From: Hyphomicrobium album
GTDB lineage: Bacteria; Pseudomonadota; Alphaproteobacteria; Rhizobiales; Hyphomicrobiaceae
Assembly (NCBI RefSeq): GCF_009708035.1
Contig: NZ_WMBQ01000001.1
Coordinates: 868,001-932,000 of the forward strand
Length of the DNA: 64,000 nucleotides
Direction of reading: 5' to 3'
In this document: piece by piece, positions 8,788 through 23,231 of the stretch
Numbering within the stretch: the stretch's first letter is position 1
Layout: every line of letters begins with the position of its first letter
The notes under the pieces: generated by a model
Seen by the model: the letters and a program-made list of their open reading frames with translations, nothing else
The model's database searches: none
What the model was told of the DNA's origin: nothing
Program-made: the position numbers and the translations under genes

Positions 8788-9486
8788 ATGATCCGGCCGC
8801 GCCACGCTGAGCATCACATGGTCGGCCGCATCGGCTGGCTGCGCGCTGCCGTGCTCGGCGCCAACGACGGCATCCTCTCGACCGCCAGCCTCATCTCCGG
8901 CGTCGCCGCCGCCGACGCCGATCACAGCAGCGCACTGATCGCCGGCATCGCCGGGCTCGTCGCCGGCGCCATGTCGATGGCGGCCGGCGAGTACGTCTCG
9001 GTGAGTTCGCAGGCCGATACGGAGAACGCCGAGCTCGGCCGCGAGCGCCAGGAGCTGACGGAAGACGTCGAGGGCGAGCGCCGGGAGCTGGCCGACATCT
9101 ACGTGAAGCGCGGCGTCGAGCCCGACCTCGCGCGCAAGATCGCGGTGCAGCTGATGGCCAAGGACGCGCTCGGGGCGCACGCCCGCGACGAGCTCGGCAT
9201 CTCCGAGATCACCGTGGCGCGCCCGGTGCAGGCGGCGCTCACCTCGGCCGCCACCTTCGCCGCCGGCGCCTCCATGCCGCTGTTGGCGACGCTCGCCGCG
9301 CCGGCCGGCTGGATCATTCCCGTCGTCACGAGCGTCTCGCTTGTGACACTGGCAGCACTAGGCGCCATCGGCGCGCGGGCTGGCGGGGCCAACGAGTGGC
9401 GGGCGGCGGGGCGCGTCGCCTTCTGGGGTGCTTTCGCCATGGCGCTGACCGCCGGCATCGGCGCGCTCGTCGGCGCCAAGCTCTAG
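8788..9486 (+). CDS. VIT1/CCC1 family iron/manganese transporter
   Basis: The product is 232 residues. The N-terminus HHMVGRIGWLRAAVLGANDG and the following GILSTASLISGVAAA are characteristic of the VIT1/CCC1 family, which moves Fe2+ or Mn2+ across membranes. A charged segment (near residues 75-140) between the second and third hydrophobic segments fits the metal-binding loop of this family, and three further hydrophobic segments follow near the C-terminus. The first in-frame ATG after phaC is at 8788, 15 bp past its stop, so co-transcription is likely. The next gene begins 12 bp downstream. Confidence 0.92.
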   Translation: MIRPRHAEHHMVGRIGWLRAAVLGANDGILSTASLISGVAAADADHSSALIAGIAGLVAGAMSMAAGEYVSVSSQADTENAELGRERQELTEDVEGERRELADIYVKRGVEPDLARKIAVQLMAKDALGAHARDELGISEITVARPVQAALTSAATFAAGASMPLLATLAAPAGWIIPVVTSVSLVTLAALGAIGARAGGANEWRAAGRVAFWGAFAMALTAGIGALVGAKL

Positions 9487-9498
9487 CCCGGTCGCTCC

Positions 9499-11079
9499 AT
9501 GTCCCCACGCTTCCCTGCCGTCGACGCCCTCTTCGAGCGCTTCACCCAAGGTATGCAGCCGGGCTGTGCCGTCGGCGTCATCCGCGACGGCGCACTCGTC
9601 CATGCCGCCGGCTATGGTTTCGCCGACATCGAGCGCAGCGAAGGCATCGACGCCGACACCGCCTTCAATATCGCCTCGACCTCGAAGCAGTTCACCGCCT
9701 TTGCGCTGCTGCTGCTCGCCCGCGACGGCCGGCTCTCTCTCGACGACAGCGTCCGCAAACATGTGCCCGACCTGCCGGCCTACACGGAAGCCGTGACGCT
9801 GCGCCAGCTCATGCATCACTTGGGCGGCCTGCGGAGCTATATCGAGTTGCTGCTGCTCGGCGGCCGCACGTTCGCCGAGCGCACCACGCGCGAGGATGCG
9901 CTGCGCGTCATCGCCCGCCAGCGCGGCTTCGACGACGTGCCGGGGCACGCGTTCGCCTACAGCAACACCGGCTACTTCCTCATGTCCTTGGTTGTCGAGC
10001 GCGTCAGCGGCCGCACGCTCGCCGAGTTCTCGCAGGCGGAAATCTTTGCGCCGCTCGGCATGCGCCGTACCTCCATCGTGGACCGCTATCCGATCGATAT
10101 CGCGCACAGTGCCCGCGGCTATGCGGTGAAGGAAACTGCGGTGAAACTTTCCGAATCCGCTTGGGAGCAGACGGGCGACGGCCAGGTGCACACCACCATC
10201 GGCGACCTCGCGCTGTGGGACGCCAACTTCTACGCGCCGCGCGTCGGCGACGCCCAACTCATCGCCGAGATGCTGCGCGCGGGCGTGTCCAGCGATGGCC
10301 ACGACGTCGGCTACGGCGGCGGTCTCTTCCTCTCGCGGCGCCACGGCCTCGCAACCGTCAGCCACGGCGGCGGTTGGGCTGGCTACCGCAGCGAGCTCTT
10401 GCGCTTCCCCGAACTGCGCACGAGCGTCATCGTCCTCGCCAACCGCGAGGACGTCGACGCCTGCGCGCTCGCGCAGAAAGTGGCGCAGGCGGTGCTCGAC
10501 CTGCCCGAGCGCAAGCAGGCCGAACCGCTGCCGTATCTTACCGGGCTGCGCGCCGGGCCGTCATGGACGGCGCCGGCGCCCGGCATGTATCGCGGCGCGG
10601 CGGGGCAATACCTGCGCGTCCTGCAAGAGAATGACGGACTGGCGATCGCCTGGGGCAGCGGCAAGTATCCGCTCAGCCTACGCGACGACGAACTTCTGCA
10701 GTTCACTGCCGGCGGCGACGCGTTCATCGCCGCGAGCTACGTCGGTGACGACGGACGCCAGCACTTCGCCGCGCAGCTCGACGACGAGGTCGCCGACCAC
10801 GTGTCGGTGGGCGACTGGGCGCCGGACCTCGCTGCCTTCGCCGGCCGTTACACGAGCGAGGAATGCGACGGCCACATCGAGCTCCGCGCCGACGGCGCCG
10901 GCCTCGAGGTCGATCAGTTCGGCGCCACCCGCAACCTGCACGCCGGCGCGGAAGGCGATCTCGTCACCGACGCGGGCGTGGTCTTGCGCGTGCCGCCACG
11001 CGCCGAGGACGGCACCTTCGTCTTTGCCAGCTGGGGCCTGCGCGGCCTCACCTACCGACGACGCAACCCACGCACATGA
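9499..11079 (+). CDS. Serine hydrolase of the beta-lactamase/class C penicillin-binding fold
   Basis: The product is 526 residues. The N-terminal ~350 residues form a beta-lactamase-like domain with the SxxK motif (ASTSKQFT, Ser60-Lys63), the Y-x-N motif (FAYSNTGYF) and an HGG motif (SHGGGWAGYRS) in place of KTG. The C-terminal ~170 residues look like the beta-barrel domain found in EstB/peptidase-type homologues. No convincing signal peptide is visible. The family includes esterases, D-amino peptidases and true beta-lactamases, so substrate is open. It lies 12 bp after the VIT1 gene. Confidence 0.85.
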   Translation: MSPRFPAVDALFERFTQGMQPGCAVGVIRDGALVHAAGYGFADIERSEGIDADTAFNIASTSKQFTAFALLLLARDGRLSLDDSVRKHVPDLPAYTEAVTLRQLMHHLGGLRSYIELLLLGGRTFAERTTREDALRVIARQRGFDDVPGHAFAYSNTGYFLMSLVVERVSGRTLAEFSQAEIFAPLGMRRTSIVDRYPIDIAHSARGYAVKETAVKLSESAWEQTGDGQVHTTIGDLALWDANFYAPRVGDAQLIAEMLRAGVSSDGHDVGYGGGLFLSRRHGLATVSHGGGWAGYRSELLRFPELRTSVIVLANREDVDACALAQKVAQAVLDLPERKQAEPLPYLTGLRAGPSWTAPAPGMYRGAAGQYLRVLQENDGLAIAWGSGKYPLSLRDDELLQFTAGGDAFIAASYVGDDGRQHFAAQLDDEVADHVSVGDWAPDLAAFAGRYTSEECDGHIELRADGAGLEVDQFGATRNLHAGAEGDLVTDAGVVLRVPPRAEDGTFVFASWGLRGLTYRRRNPRT

Positions 11080-11167
11080 TTTGCACGCTGGCTATTCGCA
11101 ACGCGCTTTGCTAGCGTGGATGCCAGTTATATTTGCCTCGCCGATTGCTATTTTTTGAGCGGCGCAT

Positions 11168-12343
11168 ATGCATTTCCGCTGGCATGTATTTGTCGCGTCT
11201 TTGTTTCTGGCTGCCGCCGTGAGCGGCATCCTTGTGCAGCAGGCCGATGCTCAATCCGTGCACGAACTGCAAGCCGCACCGACGAACCGGGTCGTCGACA
11301 CCGATGGCGAGGCGCGGGAACTCGTCGCCGAGGTGCTGAAGCAGTACGGCCTGAAACTCAACGACGACGATTGGGAAATCTATATCACCGCCGACGGGTC
11401 GGACACGCCCAACGCCGCCGCGAATTTCACTGGCAAGCGGCAGATCGCGTTCAATACCGCATTCATGCGCCGGCTGGGCGAGCGTTCGGGTGACAACTGG
11501 ACCTTGTACGCGATCGCCGCGCACGAGCTCGCCCACCACCTCGGCAACCATGTCTTGCGGCCCTATTTCCGCCGCCAGCTCGCCGAGCGCGAGGCCGACT
11601 ACCATGCCGGCTTCGTGCTGGGGCGCATGGGCGCTCCCTACACGCGGACCATCGATGTCGTCCGCTGGCTGCCGGATATGGCGGCCGAGTATCCATCGCG
11701 CGCCCAGCGCCTGTGCGAGATCGGGCGGGGATGGCGCGATGCCAACCGGCTGGCGCCGCTGCAGTCGCCCCCGGAAACCCGCAGCGCCGTTACCACGACG
11801 CTGCAATCCTGCGAGGGGAGCCAGCCCGACGAGAGCGTCTACCGGCTCCGCAGAAACCGCGACATCTACGGCCACGACATTGCGTTCAACGGCAAGATCG
11901 GTATCCCCGGCGTCGAGCTTTCGACGTGCGCCGCCTATTGCGCCGAGCTGCCCGAATGCAAGGCGTTCAGCTTCGATAGCTGGCACGGATGGTGCTTCCC
12001 GAAGTCGGCAGTGGCGGCGTCGAACGCCGATCCTCCCTCAGTCATTGGAGTGAAGCGGCCGGCGGCGATTCCGGCCGTCGACCAGACACTGATTTCCGGC
12101 TTCGTTCTCGTGCGCAACCGGCGCTTCCGCGACGCGCCTGACCCTCCGCCCGCTGCCGTCGTCAACTTCGACGCCTGCAAGCGCCAATGCGCCGAGAGCA
12201 CCCACTGTGTCGCCTTCAGTTTCGAGAAGGCGAGCAAGGTCTGTTCTATGTTCCGCGCCACCGTTGGCCACTACATCGATGAGTTGGCCGACAGCGGCTA
12301 CAAGCAGCAAAGGCCCCGCACTCCCCCTCCCCAGCCATTTTAG
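11168..12343 (+). CDS. Secreted zincin metalloprotease-like protein with two PAN/apple-type modules
   Basis: The product is 391 residues. Residues 1-28 form a signal peptide (VASLFLAAAVSGILVQQADAQ). A M48-like zincin core follows: AAHELAHHLGNH (HExxH near residue 119) and EREADYHAGFVLG downstream, which would supply the third zinc ligand. The C-terminal half has two Cys-rich segments of PAN/apple type: one with LSTCAAYCAELPECKAFSF and one with FDACKRQCAESTHCVAFSF. Such modules bind carbohydrate or protein. The gene ends 25 bp before the tyrosinase start on the same strand, so the two may be co-expressed. Confidence 0.75.
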   Translation: MHFRWHVFVASLFLAAAVSGILVQQADAQSVHELQAAPTNRVVDTDGEARELVAEVLKQYGLKLNDDDWEIYITADGSDTPNAAANFTGKRQIAFNTAFMRRLGERSGDNWTLYAIAAHELAHHLGNHVLRPYFRRQLAEREADYHAGFVLGRMGAPYTRTIDVVRWLPDMAAEYPSRAQRLCEIGRGWRDANRLAPLQSPPETRSAVTTTLQSCEGSQPDESVYRLRRNRDIYGHDIAFNGKIGIPGVELSTCAAYCAELPECKAFSFDSWHGWCFPKSAVAASNADPPSVIGVKRPAAIPAVDQTLISGFVLVRNRRFRDAPDPPPAAVVNFDACKRQCAESTHCVAFSFEKASKVCSMFRATVGHYIDELADSGYKQQRPRTPPPQPF

Positions 12344-12368
12344 ATCGTTCGTATTTTCGAGGTGCTCC

Positions 12369-13910
12369 ATGATCTCCTCCAATTCGCGGTCGTTCGACCG
12401 CCGGACATTCCTGGGCGGCATGGCTGCCGCCTCCGGCATGCTGCCGTTCTCGAACTGGATCGCGTTGGCGGGCGCATCCACGGTGCGCGAGCGTCCCGAG
12501 GCATCAACGGCAAGAGGCCAGCAGATGCTCGCCGTCTACCGCAAGGCAGTCGGGCTGATGAACGACAAAGCCGTGTTTCCCCAACACCATCCGCACAGCT
12601 GGCGCTTCCAGGCCAACATCCACAACTATCCGAGTGACGAGCCCGTTAGCGCCGTCTTCACCGCTGCAGCCGGCGAGAATGCGCAATTGGTCGCCGAGCG
12701 CCGCAAGCTGGCGCTTGGCCCCGACGGCAACGGCAGCGGCGGGATTTGGGCGACGTGTCCGCACCACCTGCCGGATGTGCAATTCCTTCCCTGGCACCGG
12801 CTCTACCTCGCCTACTTCGAGCAGATCATCGAGAAGGTGGCGGGTGCGCCGTTCGCGCTCCCCTACTGGGACTACCTCGACCCGAACAAGCGCCACATGC
12901 CCGACATGTTCCGCGACGCGACCATCGGCGGACAGACGAACTGGCTCTACTACAAAGATCGCAGCTCGCGCTTTGTCAGCGACGGACTGAGCGAAAACTC
13001 CATCGTCACCCTGCAGAGCACACCCAGGGCGAACCTCATGAAGACCCCCAACTTTTTCACCAACGTCCGCCGCGCCGGCTTCAGCGATGCGCTGGAGGAG
13101 GATCTGCATGACCAGATCCACGGCGCCATCGGCACCAAGATCGGCAACAAGGTAGTGGGAATGGCCACCATCCGACTTGCCGCCCGCGATCCGATCTTCT
13201 GGCTGCATCACGCCAGCATCGATCGGCTGTGGGAGAGCTGGCGCAAGCCGGGGCCGGACGGCAAGTCGCCGCGTGACCCCAATGCCGCGAACTCCTGGTA
13301 CGCGTCGAAGTACGCGTTCATCGACGGGGCAGCCGCCGCGCAACGGGACAAGGGGGCCGCCTTCGTGCTGGTGGCGGCTGCCAACCTCAAATACCGCTAC
13401 GACAATCTTCATCCGGCACCCGACATTGTCGTGGCGGCTGGCGCCGACACGCCGTCAGGACCGCCGACGCGCATTCAAAGCGGCGAGACGACCGGCCAGA
13501 AGATCACCAACGAGGGAGACAGTGTCAGCATCCCGCTGAAGCCCGCCGTCAACGAGGGCGTCGCCCTGGGCTTCAGCAACAATCCGGCGAGCCGCTATAG
13601 CCTGCTCATCAAGCTGCGCACGGCGCCGGAGCCCGGCGTGTACCAAGTTTACATGGATGTGCCCGGAACAGCGGGCGGGCCTGTGACCCAGGCGCTGGTC
13701 GGCTCTTTCAGCCTGTTCCGCGTCGGCGCGCATTCCGAGCACGGCGAGGCGCACGGACCGACAGACGAGACCGTCGTCATCGATGTCACGGCCAAGGTCA
13801 ACGAGAAGGTCATAGACCCGCTGAAGCCCGGCAAAGTGACCGTGCGGGCGAGCTACCTCGACGCCCCAGTCGACATCACCGTCAATGCGGCGGAGATCGT
13901 CGCCAAGTAA
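12369..13910 (+). CDS. Tat-exported tyrosinase-family copper oxidase
   Basis: The product is 513 residues from the ATG at 12369. The N-terminus carries a twin-arginine signal (SFDRRTFLGGMAAASG), so folded export is expected. The type 3 copper centre is visible. The CuA part has ICPH-like ATCPHHLPDVQFLPWHRLYL, with an upstream His-rich stretch HHPHSWRFQANIHNY. The CuB part has LHDQIHGAIG and FWLHHASIDRLWESW. The last ~150 residues form a C-terminal beta-rich domain. The family hydroxylates monophenols and oxidises o-diphenols to quinones; exact substrate is unknown. Confidence 0.92.
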   Translation: MISSNSRSFDRRTFLGGMAAASGMLPFSNWIALAGASTVRERPEASTARGQQMLAVYRKAVGLMNDKAVFPQHHPHSWRFQANIHNYPSDEPVSAVFTAAAGENAQLVAERRKLALGPDGNGSGGIWATCPHHLPDVQFLPWHRLYLAYFEQIIEKVAGAPFALPYWDYLDPNKRHMPDMFRDATIGGQTNWLYYKDRSSRFVSDGLSENSIVTLQSTPRANLMKTPNFFTNVRRAGFSDALEEDLHDQIHGAIGTKIGNKVVGMATIRLAARDPIFWLHHASIDRLWESWRKPGPDGKSPRDPNAANSWYASKYAFIDGAAAAQRDKGAAFVLVAAANLKYRYDNLHPAPDIVVAAGADTPSGPPTRIQSGETTGQKITNEGDSVSIPLKPAVNEGVALGFSNNPASRYSLLIKLRTAPEPGVYQVYMDVPGTAGGPVTQALVGSFSLFRVGAHSEHGEAHGPTDETVVIDVTAKVNEKVIDPLKPGKVTVRASYLDAPVDITVNAAEIVAK

Positions 13911-13961
13911 ATCTTTGCGCGGGCGGCGGCTGGCGCAGCGCAGCGCCGCCCGCCGCAGCCG

Positions 13962-15029
13962 TCAACGATTGAACTCCCAGTACGCCTTGTTGTCGCGCGT
14001 CGTCCGCCGCGCGTAGTGGCGCTGCTTGGCCGGGTTGAGCCACGGTCGCAGCGCGTTCTGGTCGAACACATCCGCCAGGTCGGCGAACAGATCGTCGACC
14101 TGCATGTAGGCGTTGTGGTTGAACTCGAACAGCGCCGTCTCGTTCGAGACGTCGATCGTTGCCATGTTGGGAAGCACGATGGGCCCGTTGCCGGCCGAGA
14201 TGAGGCCGGCGCGTGGGCCCCCGCCGCCGAATTCCGGTGCCACCCGCAGTGCCCGGTCGTTGTCCGACACCCACAGCGTCGCCCCGCCCGCAGCCGCGAC
14301 GATCCGCGGAGCGGCGCTGAGGAACTCCGCACGTTCGACGTCCGGCGAGCACAGCAATATCTGGCCGAGCTTGCGCATCCGCGGTGCGGAGGCGAGCGTG
14401 CGCATCAGCAGCCGATTGCCGAGCGAATGCGAGATGATGTGGATGCGGTCGACGGCGGGAGCGGCGTCGAGCGCCTGCAAGAGCTCCGCCAGCGCCACCT
14501 TGCTGGCATCGACGGTGGCCGCGTCGGCGCGATAGCTGGCCGGTGTCCATGAGGCGAGCGAGGGCCAGGAAAAAACGGCCACGTCACCCTTGAAGCCGAT
14601 CTTGCCGGCCACGTGGTTGGCGAGATGGGTGGCACCTTCGATCGAGTTGTTGAAGCCATGCACGTAGAGCAGCACCGGCTGCTTTGCCCCCGGCTGCCGG
14701 GCGAGTGCTTCGCCGATGTTGCGCGGCTCGATCGGGCTCACCTTTATCGGCTCGGCATCGCTCGTCTCGCCTTGCGTCTGGTCGATCAGCGCATACGACA
14801 AGCGGGGCGAGCGCTCATTCGAAAACCCCGCCGTCGTCGTCAATGTGCCGTCGTCGGTGCGGGCTCGGTTCGTCGCGATCACGAACTTTCCTCCTTCGCT
14901 TAGCTGTAGCGGAGGGTTCGTGTCGGCTTTGGCGCCCACGGCGAAGCCGAGGTTCAGCACAGCGATGACAAGGTGGGACAGACGGGCAGCGCGACGCACA
15001 CGGGGCATCGCCGAGGCAAGTTTGCGCAT
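13962..15029 (-). CDS. Exported alpha/beta hydrolase of the DUF900 type
   Basis: The product is 355 residues from ATG 15029, with an N-terminal signal peptide (ARLSHLVIAVLNLGFAVGAKA). The hydrolase core shows LLYVHGFNNSIEGATHLAN and the nucleophile elbow IISHSLGNRLLMRTL. This pattern fits the DUF900/esterase-lipase family. The last His of a triad may lie in the EFNHNAYMQ region. Substrate is unknown. It faces the tyrosinase gene convergently with about 50 bp between stops. Confidence 0.8.
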   Translation of the reverse strand: MRKLASAMPRVRRAARLSHLVIAVLNLGFAVGAKADTNPPLQLSEGGKFVIATNRARTDDGTLTTTAGFSNERSPRLSYALIDQTQGETSDAEPIKVSPIEPRNIGEALARQPGAKQPVLLYVHGFNNSIEGATHLANHVAGKIGFKGDVAVFSWPSLASWTPASYRADAATVDASKVALAELLQALDAAPAVDRIHIISHSLGNRLLMRTLASAPRMRKLGQILLCSPDVERAEFLSAAPRIVAAAGGATLWVSDNDRALRVAPEFGGGGPRAGLISAGNGPIVLPNMATIDVSNETALFEFNHNAYMQVDDLFADLADVFDQNALRPWLNPAKQRHYARRTTRDNKAYWEFNR

Positions 15030-15147
15030 GGAAAAGTCCTCAACAAAAAAAGGCATGCAAAATGGTTTTGTAGAATGCAGCAGGTATTGTGCATCACAGA
15101 CGTCGTCGCGGCCAGCGTCAAGGCGACTGGCCGGCGCGCATTCCGCA

Positions 15148-15184
15148 GAAAAAGAGGCGGCGCCGGACGTGAGCCCGGCGCCGC
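15148..15184 (-). terminator. Rho-independent terminator after glnII
   Basis: On the minus strand the glnII stop is followed about 28 bp later by a perfect 10-bp stem (GCGGCGCCGG / CCGGCGCCGC) with an 8-nt loop. A CTCTTTTTCT tract follows immediately. Confidence 0.85.
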
Positions 15185-17939: not shown

Positions 17940-19919
17940 TCACGGCGTGACGATGTTGAACCAGAACGGATAGGTGTCGAGCAATCCCAGGAAATCGCTG
18001 AACGACTGCTTGTTGCCCTCGACCTTCAGGTCACCAGCGGCTATGGCGTCATCGATCGTTGTCGTCTTCAGTTGAATGCTATCGAGCGTGTTCTTGGTCA
18101 GCGTCAGCATTGCGTCGGGCGTCTCGACGAATTTGGGGCTGTAGTTCAACGTGCCGTTCTCGACGAAGAGCGCGTACTTCTTATTGAGATCGGTGAAGTT
18201 GATGTTGAGCCCGATCTTCTTACCTTCCGCCTTTGGACCGTTGAGCCGCACGCCGAGGTAGTCGAACAGCAGTTCGGGCGACATCGCCTTTATCGTGTCA
18301 GGGCTTGCGGTATCGATCCCGCCGGAGTTCGGCACGCCGTGGCGCAGCTCATAGGCGCCCTGCAGATAGACCGACCGCCACGGACCGGATTCGGCCTGAT
18401 AGCCCATCTGTTCGTAGGCATCGGCCAGAAGCTCCTTGGCCTCTTTGTTCGATGGATCGGCGAACACGACGTTCTTCAGTGCCATCGCCACCCATCGATA
18501 TTGTCCCTTGTCGAAATCGCCCTTGGCCTTCGCGATGATTGCCGGCGCACCGCCCATGTACTCGACATATTTCACAGCCGCCTCCTCAGGCGGGAGCTCG
18601 TCGAGCGTGGTTGGGTTGGCGTCATAGAAGCCCATGTACCGCTGATAGACGGCGCGGCTATTGTGCTTGACGGTGCCGTAGTAGCCGCGATTGAACCACG
18701 ATTGGTCGAGCTCCTTCGGCAGCTTGATCATGTTGGACAGCTCGACGCCGGTGTAGCCTTCGTTCATGAGGCGCACCGATTGATCGTGGATGTACTTGTA
18801 AAGGTCGCGCTGCTTCTTCAAGTAGTCGATGATGCGCTCGTGCCCCCACATTGGCCAGTGATGGCTCGCGAACTCGACGTCGATGTTTGGGCCGAACATA
18901 TCGATGGTCTGCTGCAGGAAGCGTGCCCAGGCCGCAGCGTCGCGCACCTTGGCGCCGCGCAACGTGAGTAGGTTGTGCAGCGTGTGCGTCGTGTTCTCCG
19001 CCATCCACATCGCCTTGAACTGTGAAAAGAAGGTATTCATCTCCGACGGCGCTTCCGTGCCGGGCGTCATCTGAAATTCCACGTCGATGCCGTCGATCGT
19101 CAGCTTCGTGCCCGTCTTGGAAATCGTCTCCGATGGCACGATCAGCGTCGCGGTTCCGGTCGATGTGGTTGGCCCGAGACCGCCGCTCACGCCGCCGACC
19201 GGCGAGCGCGGCAGCAGTGCGCCGTACATGTAGATGGCGCGACGGCTCATGGCGTTGCCCGCAATGACGTTCTCGCTCACCGCTTCCTCGGTGAAGCCTT
19301 CCGGCGCGATGATGCGCACCTTGCCGGACTTCACATCGTTCTCGTCGACGATGCCGCGTACGCCACCGTAGTGGTCGACGTGGGAATGGCTGTAGATGAC
19401 GGCAACGACCGGCTTCTTGCCGAGGTTCTCGCTGACGAGATCGTAGGCCGCCTTGGCGGTTTCCGTGGAGATGAGTGGATCGCCGACGATCCAGCCGGTG
19501 TCGCCTTGAATGAACGTCATCACCGACAGGTCATAACCGCGGACCTGGTAGATGCGGTCGGTCACCTTGAACAGCCCGTAGTGGAGCCCGAGCTGCGCGT
19601 TGCGCCAGAGGCTGGGATTTACCGAATCCGGCGCCGGCTTATCATCGCCGATATAGGTTTTGTACTGCTCCAAATCCCAGACGACGTTCCCCTTGGCGTC
19701 TTTGATGGTGAGCTTCTCTGGCCGCGCAACGAAGCCGCGCTGAGCGTCCTCGAAGTCCTGTTTGTCGCTGAAGGGCAGCGAATTCAACACGGCGGCGTTG
19801 GCCGCCTTGGTCGCTTCGCTCGCCGGCTTGGACTGTGTCTGCGCGAGGGAAGCTATGGGAATAAGCGCGCAAATGAGGGCTGTTGCGGCGCCAGCGATCA
19901 GAGCTGATTGACGAGCCAT
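17940..19919 (-). CDS. SdsA1-like alkyl sulfatase (metallo-beta-lactamase fold)
   Basis: The product is 659 residues from ATG 19919, preceded by a strong GGGAGGAG. A signal peptide (ALIAGAATALICALIPIASLAQ) points to periplasmic export. The zinc-binding motif IYSHSHVDHYGGVRGIVDE (HxHxDH) matches SDS hydrolases, with further ligands in MWMAENTTHTLHNL and VEFASHHWPMWG. The C-terminal SCP2-like domain (from about residue 530) is also typical. The family cleaves primary or secondary alkyl sulfates to alcohol and sulfate, giving carbon and sulfur. Confidence 0.93.
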   Translation of the reverse strand: MARQSALIAGAATALICALIPIASLAQTQSKPASEATKAANAAVLNSLPFSDKQDFEDAQRGFVARPEKLTIKDAKGNVVWDLEQYKTYIGDDKPAPDSVNPSLWRNAQLGLHYGLFKVTDRIYQVRGYDLSVMTFIQGDTGWIVGDPLISTETAKAAYDLVSENLGKKPVVAVIYSHSHVDHYGGVRGIVDENDVKSGKVRIIAPEGFTEEAVSENVIAGNAMSRRAIYMYGALLPRSPVGGVSGGLGPTTSTGTATLIVPSETISKTGTKLTIDGIDVEFQMTPGTEAPSEMNTFFSQFKAMWMAENTTHTLHNLLTLRGAKVRDAAAWARFLQQTIDMFGPNIDVEFASHHWPMWGHERIIDYLKKQRDLYKYIHDQSVRLMNEGYTGVELSNMIKLPKELDQSWFNRGYYGTVKHNSRAVYQRYMGFYDANPTTLDELPPEEAAVKYVEYMGGAPAIIAKAKGDFDKGQYRWVAMALKNVVFADPSNKEAKELLADAYEQMGYQAESGPWRSVYLQGAYELRHGVPNSGGIDTASPDTIKAMSPELLFDYLGVRLNGPKAEGKKIGLNINFTDLNKKYALFVENGTLNYSPKFVETPDAMLTLTKNTLDSIQLKTTTIDDAIAAGDLKVEGNKQSFSDFLGLLDTYPFWFNIVTP

Positions 19920-20206
19920 TCGCTCCTCCCAGAAAGCGTTGATTGGTGTGGACGCGGGCGCATAGGAATTATGCCGATCACGGAAGGTATTCGTTTGTAA
20001 ACGGAGGGTATTGCCAACTGTTCCGATCTGCAGCACGCCATTTTGGTGTAAGGTAAAATCTCAATTTCAATTGCGAGGCACCGCTGCTGGGCTGCTCGCA
20101 TAGGGCACGCGGACCACGTGCGCGTGGACGCACTCGCCGCTACGGCGGAGAATGAAGTCAAACCAAAATGGAGGAGCGGGCCGCGTTAGCGCGTGGGGCG
20201 TCCGTC

Positions 20207-21595
20207 CTACTTATCTAGGGGGACACTCATGGCGCACACCACGCCGCCCGGAGCGTACTCTAATCGTACGTTCTCAAGGACGAGCTCGATCAGCGTGGAG
20301 CCGAACCCCTTGCGCTCCGGTGGCGGCACTGCTGGACCCCCGCTCTCCCGCCAGGTGAGACGCACGTGCGATTGTCCCTCGGGGAGCCAGTCGATATGGA
20401 CCCGACCTTCCGCATTGGACAGCGCACCGTACTTGACCGCATTGGTCGCAAGCTCATGCAGCGCCAGCGTGAGATGTGAAGCGTTGGCCGCGTTGACGGC
20501 GCAGTCGGGTCCCTCGACGACAATACGCTGTACCGGGAACGGCTCGAGCGCTTGCTCGACGACCCGGCGCATCTGTGCCCGGTTCCAGGTCTCGCTGGTC
20601 AAGAGCTCATAGGCTCCCGCCAACGCGCGCAGGCGCCCACCGAACGTCTCGCGCTCCTCCTTCGGGACGCTGCGCAGCGTCTGGTTCGCAAACGCTTGGA
20701 CCATGGCGAGCGTGTTCTTTACCCGATGCTTCATCTCCCCGAGCAGCATTTCGCGGTGCGCCTCGGCCCGCTTTCGGTCGGTAATGTCGCGCGCAATCTT
20801 CGAGGCGCCGACCACGCGGCCGGCGGCGTTCCTGAGCGGCGACACGGTGATGGAGATGTCGATGAGCTCGCCGTTCTTGCGCTGGCGAACGGTTTCGTAG
20901 TGGTCGATACGCTCTCCGCGCATTATGCGCTGCAGGATCTCCGGCTCTTCATCCAGGCGATCCGTAGGGATCAGCATGGTGACCGGCTGGCCGATCGCCT
21001 CCTCGGCCGTGTAACCGAACACGCGCTCCGCCCCGGTGTTCCAGGTCCTGATGATGCCGCTGGTGTCCTTGCTGATGATCGCGTCGTCCGACGACTCGAC
21101 GATCGACGCCAACCGCTGCGATGCACGCTCGCTCACGTCGAGCAGCATGTTGACCGCGCCGATCAAGAGGCCGGCGTCGTCGAAAAGCGGCGTCGGATGC
21201 GCCAAGAACAGAACACGCGTGCCGTCGGGGCGCTCTGCCACCACTTCCATGCCCGTGATCGGCCGCTGTTGCTTGAGCGCCATCGCCATCGGGCACTCGT
21301 CGTGCGGCAACGGCGTGCCATCCGGCCAAAAGAGCTTCCAGGAACCGCAGAACTCGCTCGAGCCGAGCTTCGGAGTGCAGCCCCACAGCTCGACGGCTGC
21401 CGCATTGAAGAAGGTGATACGTCCGGCGGTATCGGTCGTGTAGATCGCCGTCGGCAAGGCATGCATAACCTGCCGCAAACTTGCGACGGAAACCCAATCC
21501 CCGAAACCGGTTGCTGGATGCAGGGCCGCTACGAGCTGAGTGGTCGCTGCCGCGATGGTATCCTTTGCCTCAACGGCCGGCATATCGCCGCGCAT
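20207..21595 (-). CDS. PAS-PAS sensor histidine kinase of the HWE family
   Basis: The product is 462 residues with no clear membrane segment, so it is probably cytoplasmic. Two PAS domains lie near residues 40-155 and 165-285 (the second with IIRTWNTGAERVFGYTAEEA). The HWE signature follows: GEMKHRVKNTLAMVQAFANQ with the phospho-acceptor His, then ALHELATNAVKYGALS, and LTWRESGGP carrying the W-x-E. Such kinases sense light, redox or small ligands in Rhizobiales. No response-regulator gene lies nearby. Start could also be the ATG at 21583. Confidence 0.92.
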   Translation of the reverse strand: MRGDMPAVEAKDTIAAATTQLVAALHPATGFGDWVSVASLRQVMHALPTAIYTTDTAGRITFFNAAAVELWGCTPKLGSSEFCGSWKLFWPDGTPLPHDECPMAMALKQQRPITGMEVVAERPDGTRVLFLAHPTPLFDDAGLLIGAVNMLLDVSERASQRLASIVESSDDAIISKDTSGIIRTWNTGAERVFGYTAEEAIGQPVTMLIPTDRLDEEPEILQRIMRGERIDHYETVRQRKNGELIDISITVSPLRNAAGRVVGASKIARDITDRKRAEAHREMLLGEMKHRVKNTLAMVQAFANQTLRSVPKEERETFGGRLRALAGAYELLTSETWNRAQMRRVVEQALEPFPVQRIVVEGPDCAVNAANASHLTLALHELATNAVKYGALSNAEGRVHIDWLPEGQSHVRLTWRESGGPAVPPPERKGFGSTLIELVLENVRLEYAPGGVVCAMSVPLDK

Positions 21596-22039
21596 TCATT
21601 GCTCCGATTATCCCACCGGGCTCTCACCATGGACGAGCGGTCCCCGGTTGGCAATTGTCCTAAGATGTAGGACTGACGAGGCCCATTATATCCAAATTGC
21701 CATAACCGCTCCCAACCAATTGGGAGGAGGAACTGGCGCCTTTTCCAGCCCGTTAGGATTTGCGATTGGAGGCGCCCGTGGCCACGAACCTTGCGCAGCG
21801 TCGCCGGTCACTGCCCGTCGCGGACACCTCGCCCCCCGAGACGATCGTCGACAACTGGTGCGTCTCGGCAGAGGCCGCTGGAGGAAATCGCTCCGCCGCT
21901 CGCGGCTGCCGATCGATAAACCGCGCCGCCAGCGCGTCGCCCGAAACCCGGAAGTTGCCCGCCGGGTTTCGAGGTAGCTATAGGCTCGAAATCTGTACTG
22001 CTTCGGACAGAAGTCCGAGGAGCAGTTCGTCGATAGCCG
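21596..22039. other. Intergenic stretch without a supported gene
   Basis: These 444 bp separate the HWE kinase start from the EF-hand gene stop. Short open frames occur on both strands, but none has a good ribosome site, hydrophobic pattern or family motif. The left part presumably holds the kinase promoter. I see no hairpin with a T-tract. Confidence 0.4.
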
Positions 22040-22372
22040 TTACTGGCACTCAGGCTTGTCGGGGTTACCCTGGCACGGGCACCAGGAACTATCGGCCGAC
22101 TTGCATGACTTGCCGTAGGCCGATGCAATCTTGTCCGCCGCAGACCATTCCTTCTCACTAATGCTGTTGTTGTTGTTCTTGTCCAAGGCCGAGAATTCCG
22201 GCGTGGCGGCTCCAAGACTCAGCTTTGGAGAGTTCGTGTTCCACTCGTTGCGGCTCACGGTGCCGCTGCCATCGGTATCGACGGTCTTCATCTTGCCAGC
22301 CCAGTCGTCGGCGACGGCGACGGTTCCGGAAAGCAGCAGAACCGAAACAATGGCGACCCACTTGTTGGTCAT
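22040..22372 (-). CDS. Secreted EF-hand calcium-binding protein
   Basis: The product is 110 residues with a signal peptide (residues 1-21, AIVSVLLLSGTVAVA). Two EF-hand loops are visible: residues 32-43 (DTDGSGTVSRNE, fully canonical) and 64-75 (DKNNNNSISEKE, with Asn in place of the usual Gly at position 6). The C-terminus has four Cys (CKSADSSWCPCQGNPDKPEC), likely disulfide-bonded in the periplasm. It probably binds Ca2+; the target is unknown. Confidence 0.85.
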   Translation of the reverse strand: MTNKWVAIVSVLLLSGTVAVADDWAGKMKTVDTDGSGTVSRNEWNTNSPKLSLGAATPEFSALDKNNNNSISEKEWSAADKIASAYGKSCKSADSSWCPCQGNPDKPECQ

Positions 22373-22584
22373 TGCGTCTTCTCCCTAATACGTAGTTCTA
22401 TTGTCATGACAATTTGTCGCCCTTCGCGGGCAACGACCCTCCCCCCAGTTTCGGCGGCGGGTCGCCACGAGTAGACGGCCGCGAATTGCGCCCGACCAGG
22501 GGGAAGCGTGGCATGGGCGATGGGCAATGGTGGCAGATCGGTTAGGCACCTTTGCATCCGCGTATGGTTCGTTGCCCCCGGCCA

Positions 22585-22980
22585 TCACTCGCGCACGCCC
22601 GCCTCGACGTTGTTGCCGTCCGGGTCGAGGACGAAAGCGGCGTAATAGCTCATCGCCTCAGGCCCGCGCGGCCCTGGCGCACCGTTGTCGATGCCGCCGG
22701 CATCCAGCGCCGCGGCGTAGAACCTGTCGACCGCCGTGCGGTCCTTGGCGGCGAAGGCCACGTGGATCGGCGCCGCCGACGTCCTATGCGCCGCCGTCCA
22801 GAACGCCGGCAGCGCCGTGCCGACCCAGATGAAAGGAAGCGGCTCCTCGGCGCTGCGACCGACGAGGAAGGACTCATCCGTATTGTCGATGGTCGCCAGG
22901 CCCAGCGCATTGGCGCAGGCGTCATAAAAGCGGCGCGCCGCCTTAAGGTCCTTCACGCGAAAGCCCATGTGGTCGAGCAT
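22585..22980 (-). CDS. VOC family (glyoxalase-like) protein
   Basis: The product is 131 residues. It starts MLDHMGFRVKDLKAARRFYD, typical of vicinal oxygen chelate proteins, and has the paired region IHVAFAAKDRTAVDRFYAAA and FVLDPDGNNVEAGVRE. Metal ligands would be the early His and late Glu. The family includes glyoxalases, dioxygenases and resistance proteins, so no substrate is assigned. Length fits a single VOC unit that dimerises. Confidence 0.85.
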   Translation of the reverse strand: MLDHMGFRVKDLKAARRFYDACANALGLATIDNTDESFLVGRSAEEPLPFIWVGTALPAFWTAAHRTSAAPIHVAFAAKDRTAVDRFYAAALDAGGIDNGAPGPRGPEAMSYYAAFVLDPDGNNVEAGVRE

Positions 22981-23231
22981 GGTTAGTCTCCTCTATTTCC
23001 ATGCCCATGAACGCCTGAGCGTCCCCCAAGGTTGTAGCGGCGCGTCGGCCGGATGCGGCGCAGTGACCACGGGACGGCCGGAGCGTCCGACACATTCGGG
23101 CCACCATCGAAACGGCTTGATGCGTCGGCGCCCGCGATAATCTATGATGCCAGCCTGCAGATATTCGGCATCGCTGCGCCGCCGTCTTGCTTCTCCACGT
23201 CCCCGTATCCCGCTTGCGTAAAGGTAACCGC

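Follow-up and report, generated by a model that had tools for sequence, protein, structure and literature searches.

Why should a gene for a secreted zinc protease stand directly upstream of a gene for a tyrosinase that appears to be made in a latent form? The question is raised by two genes of Hyphomicrobium album that lie in the stretch of DNA analyzed here (64,000 nucleotides of contig NZ_WMBQ01000001.1, which as a whole we call the window). The first encodes a predicted secreted M48 protease with two PAN modules, referred to below as the zincin, and the second a tyrosinase, probably exported by the twin-arginine translocation (Tat) system, with a C-terminal domain of the LID type. We propose that the co-encoded M48 protease trims the tyrosinase LID while the PAN modules hold the substrate, which is the most likely of the readings that we considered even if its probability falls somewhat short of even. 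LID cutting is judged most likely because several endopeptidase families occur beside or fused to similar capped enzymes. Directly supported are the gene order, the domains, the intact metal ligands, the LID fold with its conserved Phe, the location on one insert, and the linkage of secreted endopeptidases to some other LID tyrosinases.

Layout of the Gene Pair

Both genes are found on the forward strand where the original prediction placed them, the zincin at 11168-12343 and the tyrosinase at 12369-13910, and the gap of 25 bp between the zincin stop codon (12341-12343) and the tyrosinase ATG (12369) was confirmed. The mechanically called open reading frame of the tyrosinase begins upstream at GTG 12207, and ATG 12369 is the likely start in view of the Tat-like leader. 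No terminator-like site was found on either strand between 10900 and 14200, and since the genes lie on the same strand and only 25 bp apart, it was fair to describe them as a tandem. Judged from this layout, the two genes are likely co-transcribed.

A Tyrosinase Predicted to Be Latent

The tyrosinase matches Pfam Tyrosinase (PF00264) at 106.9 bits. Its proposed export by Tat is suggested by an RRTFLGG motif but not by the NCBIfam Tat model, which scores 10.8, below the cut-off of 16.7. By our own assignment from a 48-row alignment (A2), all six copper histidines are present; C130, the sole Cys of the protein, occupies the C-x-H position, and the first CuB histidine is followed by Asp248, at a position that we take to influence monophenolase activity.

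The AlphaFold model of the enzyme (mean predicted local distance difference test score, pLDDT, 82.1) is matched best over residues 39..512 by HcTyr1 of Hahella sp. CCB MM4 (8b74; VIA Z 33.1, 378 residues, root-mean-square deviation 3.1), with Ralstonia TYR and latent plant enzymes as the next structural matches. HcTyr1 is like the window enzyme in its fold and LID, the six copper His, the C-x-H Cys, and the placeholder Phe, whereas sequence identity is only ~25% and HcTyr1 is reported to shed its LID by itself. The counterpart of that Phe is Phe450, which is invariant in 48/48 rows of A2; no other position of the C-terminal domain shows such invariance. In a profile alignment it falls on position 397 of the 8b74 chain, a position counted by hand and checked by the first copper His of the chain, which falls on the published His43. 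Phe397 of HcTyr1 is described as a placeholder protruding into the active site, and without its LID the enzyme is reported to have ~10-fold more activity, with kcat for L-DOPA rising from 1.0 to 51 per second (PMC11609597). The tyrosinase of Verrucomicrobium spinosum is also reported to have a Tat leader, a C-terminal extension that restrains activity (0.67 versus 213 U/mg with L-DOPA), and no need of a caddie protein; it differs in that trypsin was used in vitro, and a co-encoded protease goes unmentioned in the excerpt of that work (PMC10526336).

The suggestion that the C-terminal domain is a cap is thus upheld by the match of the whole-length model to LID-bearing tyrosinases and by the invariant placeholder Phe, and from model and alignment together its identity as a LID is well supported. 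Phe450 is presumed to be the placeholder over the copper site and, by analogy with the enzymes above, the tyrosinase is predicted to be latent, its activity being held low by the LID. Cleavage is presumed to occur in the linker at about residues 348-372, a stretch modelled with reduced confidence. In a tree, the window tyrosinase forms a long isolated branch (1.54) that joins a 19-row clade loosely (82) and the program flags a meeting of long branches, which is why we make no claim on its origin.

A Secreted M48 Relative with an Altered Plug

The zincin was originally described as a secreted HExxH protein with two PAN-like modules, and its HELAH motif, signal-like N terminus, and PAN scores above the Pfam cut-offs agree with that description. 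It scores 27.8 bits with Pfam M48 (PF01435; cut-off 20.3), 54.5 with PAN_1 (cut-off 21.4), and 32.4 with PAN_4 (cut-off 27), the last two each in two stretches, and an NCBIfam search assigned no family to it. The PAN cysteines, eight in all, are grouped four and four with the same spacing, C-x3-C-x5-C-x11-C, and the hydrophobic signal, as read by eye, terminates after ADA and before Q.

When the zincin model is compared with solved structures, BepA of Escherichia coli is the best match (VIA Z 10.2, 143 residues); Foldseek alone returns nothing at E <= 0.001, with BepA on top at 0.04. The pLDDT is mostly 65-90 in the M48 part and under 50 in residues 226-391, the PAN part. BepA (PMC7950410) shares with the zincin the HExxH motif, the Glu that serves as third ligand, and the modelled fold, and zincin E140 is taken to correspond to the described BepA E201. 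E120 and E140 are invariant across the 8 rows of an alignment (A3) of the window zincin with seven relatives of its M48 part. Differences lie in the TPR of BepA, where the zincin has PAN modules, and in the plug, with His246 in BepA and Tyr175 in the zincin. In BepA the HPx4R motif is reported to plug the active site, its His246 sitting on the zinc, and an H246N variant was taken as deregulated by its authors; the motif is said in the same report to be family-wide (PMC7950410) and is altered in the zincin, which reads YPSRAQR. The plug starts with HP in 5/8 rows of A3, with YP in 2/8 (the window zincin and L115), and with KP in 1/8 (L010). As one regulatory residue is changed, we class the zincin as a relative of the M48 enzymes whose plug is altered. 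The enzyme may be deregulated, tyrosine-switched, or impaired.

JspA of Sinorhizobium meliloti (PMC10659215) is likewise an alphaproteobacterial exported M48 protease, reported to reduce the level of its specific target ExoR. It is a lipoprotein with a lipobox and LysM, whereas the zincin is without both and has PAN modules instead. A JspA-type lipoprotein was accordingly considered and rejected, as there is no Cys in zincin residues 1-182, hence no lipobox, and no LysM match.

The Proposed Removal of the LID

The insert would encode a latent, zymogen-type tyrosinase together with its activating protease. Tat would export the folded tyrosinase, whose LID would set Phe450 over the dicopper site, and Sec would export the M48 protease, whose two PAN modules would bind the pro-tyrosinase much as apple domains bind substrate in factor XI-like proteases. 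The protease would then cut the exposed linker (~348-372) and free the LID, the release of which would turn on phenol oxidation outside the cytoplasm. Co-transcription, contact between the two proteins, the cut itself, and the part assigned to the PAN modules are inferred. The coordinates of the features are given in Table 1.

Table 1. Positions in the window of the gene pair, its parts, and the surrounding insert.
Feature	Position	Strand	Basis or remark
Secreted M48 zincin, two PAN modules, 391 aa (predicted)	11168..12343	+	Pfam, motifs, BepA-like model m7deee55f06bd
Sec-type signal peptide, residues 1-28, no lipobox Cys	11168..11251	+	read by eye
HELAH zinc motif, residues 119-123	11522..11536	+	
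EREAD, residues 140-144; E140 presumed third zinc ligand	11585..11599	+	
YPSRAQR, residues 175-181; plug motif HPx4R with Tyr175 for His	11690..11710	+	
PAN module 1, Cys 254/258/264/276	11846..12037	+	PAN_4 232-271
PAN module 2, Cys 337/341/347/359	12080..12268	+	PAN_1 312-367
GAGGTG, ribosome-binding-site-like	12359..12364	+	4 nt 5' of tyrosinase ATG, read from sequence
LID-type tyrosinase, Tat-exported (predicted), 513 aa	12369..13910	+	PF00264, model m95c07ab721e6
Catalytic domain	12480..13409	+	CuA H85, H132, H143; CuB H247, H251, H281
Catalytic-LID linker, ~residues 348-372	13410..13484	+	pLDDT 59 at 351-360, 79 at 361-370
C-terminal beta-sandwich LID	13485..13907	+	DUF7868-like, 22.0 bits, below cut-off 25
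Phe450 codon, presumed placeholder	13716..13718	+	
Alpha/beta-hydrolase, DUF900, 364 aa	13962..15056	-	PF05990 94.0 bits; convergent with tyrosinase
Strain-specific insert, 4.07 kb	11082..15148	.	between beta-lactamase-fold gene and glutamine synthetase gene

Proteases Beside or Fused to Related Tyrosinases

Related tyrosinases are found next to secreted endopeptidases of other families. In 80 loci fetched solely by similarity to the window tyrosinase and subjected to simple gene calling, proteases make up 9/151 of the adjacent genes versus 1/465 of those farther away (Fisher 2e-5), with two fusions in addition, and the lone protease among the farther genes, the S8 of L072, is part of that locus's own cluster; the protease profiles derive from proteases of just such neighborhoods and are biased toward such cases. 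When clustered at 60% identity, 8/60 tyrosinase clusters have an adjacent or fused protease. One fusion, from Aquabacterium terrae (L028, 1631 aa), joins S8, PG_binding, an OmpA-like module (below cut-off), tyrosinase, and DUF7868, and the other, from a Rhodobacteraceae metagenome-assembled genome (L072), joins tyrosinase, DUF7868, and trypsin (S1). Adjoining genes on the same strand encode S8 in L029, L052, and L053, S1 in L072 and in the close relatives L074, L077, and L078, and M10 in L060, while M4 adjoins divergently in L092; S8 in L148 and S1 in L152 are further adjoining cases. M4, M10, and M48 belong to one clan and S8 and S1 to two others, hence the families represent three clans and are not all mutually unrelated.

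A control free of the profile bias used Pfam S8 on the 49 whole genomes that carry 50 of the 80 loci, although it involves the loci from which the idea arose and is a background check rather than an independent test. With 205 matches in 254.8 Mb, chance would place 0.14 within 100 bp and 0.21 within 1 kb, while four are adjacent or fused (L028, L029, L052, L053; Poisson 1.3e-5) and a fifth lies ~0.9-1.0 kb away (L072; Poisson 2.7e-6 for the 1-kb range). The other 30 loci gave no S8 match with our profiles, and the expectation scaled by hand to all 80 is ~0.23.

Plasmids provide further cases. The tyrosinase was matched by 112 plasmid records, from which 11 regions were opened: the top match (H1), one picked for its S8 label (H8), and nine chosen for organism variety and labelled only 'tyrosinase family protein.' In H1, from Bradyrhizobium septentrionale, an S8 gene lies 27 bp 3' of the tyrosinase, and in H8, from Sinorhizobium americanum, an S8-tyrosinase fusion is followed by a trypsin-like gene and a second S8 gene. 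In five of the nine variety plasmids an endopeptidase that is of a secreted kind by annotation only lies no more than 4 kb away: M4 separated by one gene in S. meliloti and Rhizobium phaseoli, a trypsin-like protease 4 bp from the tyrosinase in Paracoccus, S8 and trypsin-like genes, divergent and with one gene between, in R. rhizogenes, and S8 on the opposite strand 1 kb away in R. leguminosarum. The four others, from Caballeronia, Burkholderia stagnalis, Massilia, and Photobacterium, have no such endopeptidase within 4 kb, a Xaa-Pro peptidase in Photobacterium not being counted.

The fact that some related tyrosinases adjoin or are fused with other secreted endopeptidases makes processing more plausible than it would be from one pair alone. 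The processing of a pro-tyrosinase, already suggested in the original prediction, thus gains from the LID, the invariant Phe, and the protease linkage elsewhere, but not from the exact pair, which among the genomes searched was seen in its own only. Among the known cases close to the window pair are L028 and a protein of S. americanum CCGM7 (L147), in which an endopeptidase is likewise coupled to a tyrosinase; they differ in that the protease is a subtilase within one polypeptide, to which L028 adds its PG_binding and OmpA modules.

In line with the joint action on a polymer that the original prediction offered as its alternative, the same linkage could also arise if the two proteins jointly attacked extracellular protein- or phenol-rich material, with the protease opening the material or freeing peptides, the tyrosinase oxidizing their tyrosines or phenols, the PAN modules binding the material, and the LID being lost by itself or to a general protease. 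Five peptidase families adjoin tyrosinases, and there are two or three proteases at L147 (S8 fusion, S1, S8), L156 (S8, S1), and L072 (S8, S1, S1 fusion), which favors joint attack because one maturation cut needs fewer. The PG_binding and OmpA modules in the L028 and L031 tyrosinases suggest fixing to the cell wall, and the alpha/beta-hydrolase on the same insert points the same way. A dedicated cleaver would account for the fusions equally well, however, and the insert has no binding or degrading module besides PAN and the hydrolase. We consider joint attack rather improbable, albeit a reading to be taken seriously.

A third possibility is that the M48-PAN protein is a chaperone or quality-control factor in the style of BepA or JspA, which would aid folding or copper uptake of the tyrosinase in place of PpoB2 or a caddie protein. 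A PpoB2/DUF2182-like gene lies directly 3' of 19/80 tyrosinases, and small proteins with signal-like starts lie 5' of several, of which those in L042 and L071 pass the DUF7868 cut-off and those in L027, L033, L035, L047, and L054 show weaker similarity. Neither kind adjoins the window tyrosinase, whose neighbors are the zincin and the DUF900 hydrolase, and BepA is reported to have chaperone activity as well (PMC7950410). The tyrosinase-PpoB2 operon of Marinomonas mediterranea likewise pairs a tyrosinase with a helper gene, although the helper is described as a membrane copper chaperone (PMC2855505), unlike the window protease. We know of no M48 protein that delivers copper, nor, to our knowledge, do the S8 and S1 partners act as chaperones, and a chaperone role appears very unlikely.

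With LID removal by the zincin as the preferred reading, a broader proposal can be offered tentatively, as a possibility that we ourselves regard as doubtful: that LID tyrosinases of bacteria have several times acquired dedicated maturation proteases as neighbors or fusions, the proteases being drawn from five or more families (S8, S1, M4, M10, M48), and that in the present case the PAN modules would be exosites that offer the linker to an M48 enzyme without its self-inhibiting His, a counterpart of the zymogen cascades with apple domains. In the excerpted literature trypsin activates in vitro and one enzyme sheds its own lid, while an in vivo bacterial activator is not named there (PMC10526336, PMC11609597). 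The loci with a secreted protease as neighbor or fusion partner are concrete candidates for the activator of LID tyrosinases, those in A. terrae, S. americanum, and the Rhodobacteraceae genome being candidates within single polypeptides, and no M48-PAN case besides the window pair turned up among the genomes searched.

Evidence Weighing Against LID Removal by the Zincin

Several results count against the proposal. The first is that the exact M48-PAN and tyrosinase pair is not conserved, and the conserved adjacency on which the original prediction was to be judged was seen in its own genome only. Searches with the zincin, in which its own genome is counted each time, gave matches in 24/150 genomes of the order (E <= 0.001), 4/385 of the class (E <= 1e-5), and 2/398 of the phylum (E <= 1e-6), and in none of these samples or the 7 congeners did a match outside its own genome span both M48 and PAN. 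A search of genome contigs for loci related to the zincin found no relative, six plasmid records match the zincin in part only, and 102 tyrosinase loci gave no match to an M48-like profile at E <= 1e-4. In a literature search, the titles and starts of abstracts listed included no paper on an M48-PAN protein or on a tyrosinase encoded together with a protease in bacteria, which is weak evidence as the search covered open-licence papers.

The second concerns the enzymes themselves. Two of the seven M48 relatives in A3 (L113 and L114) are without both HExxH histidines, and the change to Tyr175 could mean that the zincin is an altered or dead enzyme. In the papers cited above, the M48 proteases are described as serving envelope quality control and signalling (PMC7950410, PMC10659215), and from what is reported of the Hahella enzymes, HcTyr1 needs no protease to lose its LID and HcTyr2 depends on its LID for activity (PMC11609597).

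Third, the linkage was much weaker in a fresh sample. PF00264 matched 22/385 class genomes (21 besides that of the window), and of the 23 loci fetched, 22 were recognized by the tyrosinase profile (not L211), with L208 repeating L044. Proteases are 1/39 of the adjacent and 1/143 of the farther genes (p = 0.38, not significant), and the sole nearest-gene protease is an S8 in L191 at a distance of 1.05 kb. Pfam found no peptidase except that of L191 among 18 of the neighbors; the others were checked with our own profiles. Short tyrosinase frames of <340 aa occur at four loci or more (L193, L202, L203, L207), and further loci are of a different kind. Most tyrosinase loci of either sample are without a protease neighbor. 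Given 1/39 in the fresh class-wide sample, the linkage is a minority feature, mainly of relatives of the window enzyme, of rhizobia, and of Paracoccus. The single occurrence of the M48-PAN pair, the outcome in the fresh sample, and the ability of HcTyr1 to process itself weaken the proposal.

The Insert and Its Genomic Setting

The zincin, the tyrosinase, and the convergent alpha/beta-hydrolase make up an insert whose borders were set by blastn of window positions 1-40000 against the corresponding regions of three congeners. Matching window DNA breaks off after 11081 in G150 and is picked up again at 15150; for G153 and G155 the corresponding positions are 9473/9474 and 15149. The insert is thus absent from the matching site in 3/7 congeners, the three in which the site could be judged, as the glutamine synthetase has no close match in the others (G151, G152, G154, G090). 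None of the 7 congeners has a match to the tyrosinase or the zincin. The hydrolase, which has a signal-like N-terminal stretch by eye, has only ~30-37% paralogues in the congeners and no match at E <= 1e-30 outside its own genome among the 398 phylum genomes.

Such a setting would also fit a pair of chance neighbors, unrelated accessory genes in a variable slot by the glutamine synthetase gene. The slot (9474-15149, from a VIT1-family gene to glutamine synthetase) holds four genes in the window, the beta-lactamase-fold gene only in G150, nothing in G153, and in G155 a gene that, in our reading of its sequence, is of the GGDEF/EAL type. Its contents thus vary among the congeners, the exact pair was seen once, and the hydrolase on the insert is oppositely oriented. 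By contrast, the shared strand, the 25-bp gap, the ribosome-binding-site-like sequence, and the lack of a terminator-like site are not what chance would favor, both proteins look exported, and the linkage of proteases to tyrosinases exceeds background elsewhere in one of the two samples. Chance proximity is improbable in our judgement and ranks behind joint attack.

Carriage of the insert by a phage, plasmid, or integrase was considered and gained no support: the window has no tRNA, no direct repeat of >=14 nt pairs the insert borders, and the G+C content falls in the range of the neighboring DNA. A second stretch, 17983-23216, is also missing from the G150, G153, and G155 regions; it spans most of an alkyl-sulfatase gene and the genes for an HWE/PAS histidine kinase, an EF-hand protein, and a glyoxalase-fold protein.

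Further Observations at Related Loci

In two M48-like proteins (L113:1471-2148 and L114:1591-2151, both on the reverse strand) Arg replaces both HExxH histidines and the Glu residues are kept, and these are possibly inactive. PAN modules like those of the zincin occur, within the same taxonomic order, in long frames of ~1850-2300 aa (L006, L011-L014, L016, L018-L021), which presumably resemble alpha-2-macroglobulins. On two rhizobial plasmids (L151:3683-8973 and L154:1640-5371) M4 lies one gene away from the tyrosinase, on either side, and the intervening gene encodes a hypothetical protein.

The small DUF7868 proteins of Nitrospira lie just 5' of tyrosinases that have their own LID (L042:5369-5953 and L071:5309-5953) and may be stand-alone LID or caddie-like proteins. 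PG_binding, OmpA-like, and tyrosinase modules are combined in one polypeptide at L028:2485-7377 and L031:2-3436, the latter ending at a contig edge, and these tyrosinases are perhaps cell-wall-anchored phenol oxidases. Lastly, a tyrosinase adjoins both a multicopper oxidase and a LodA-type lysine oxidase at L195:3718-10630, and a multicopper oxidase at L204:3616-5694.

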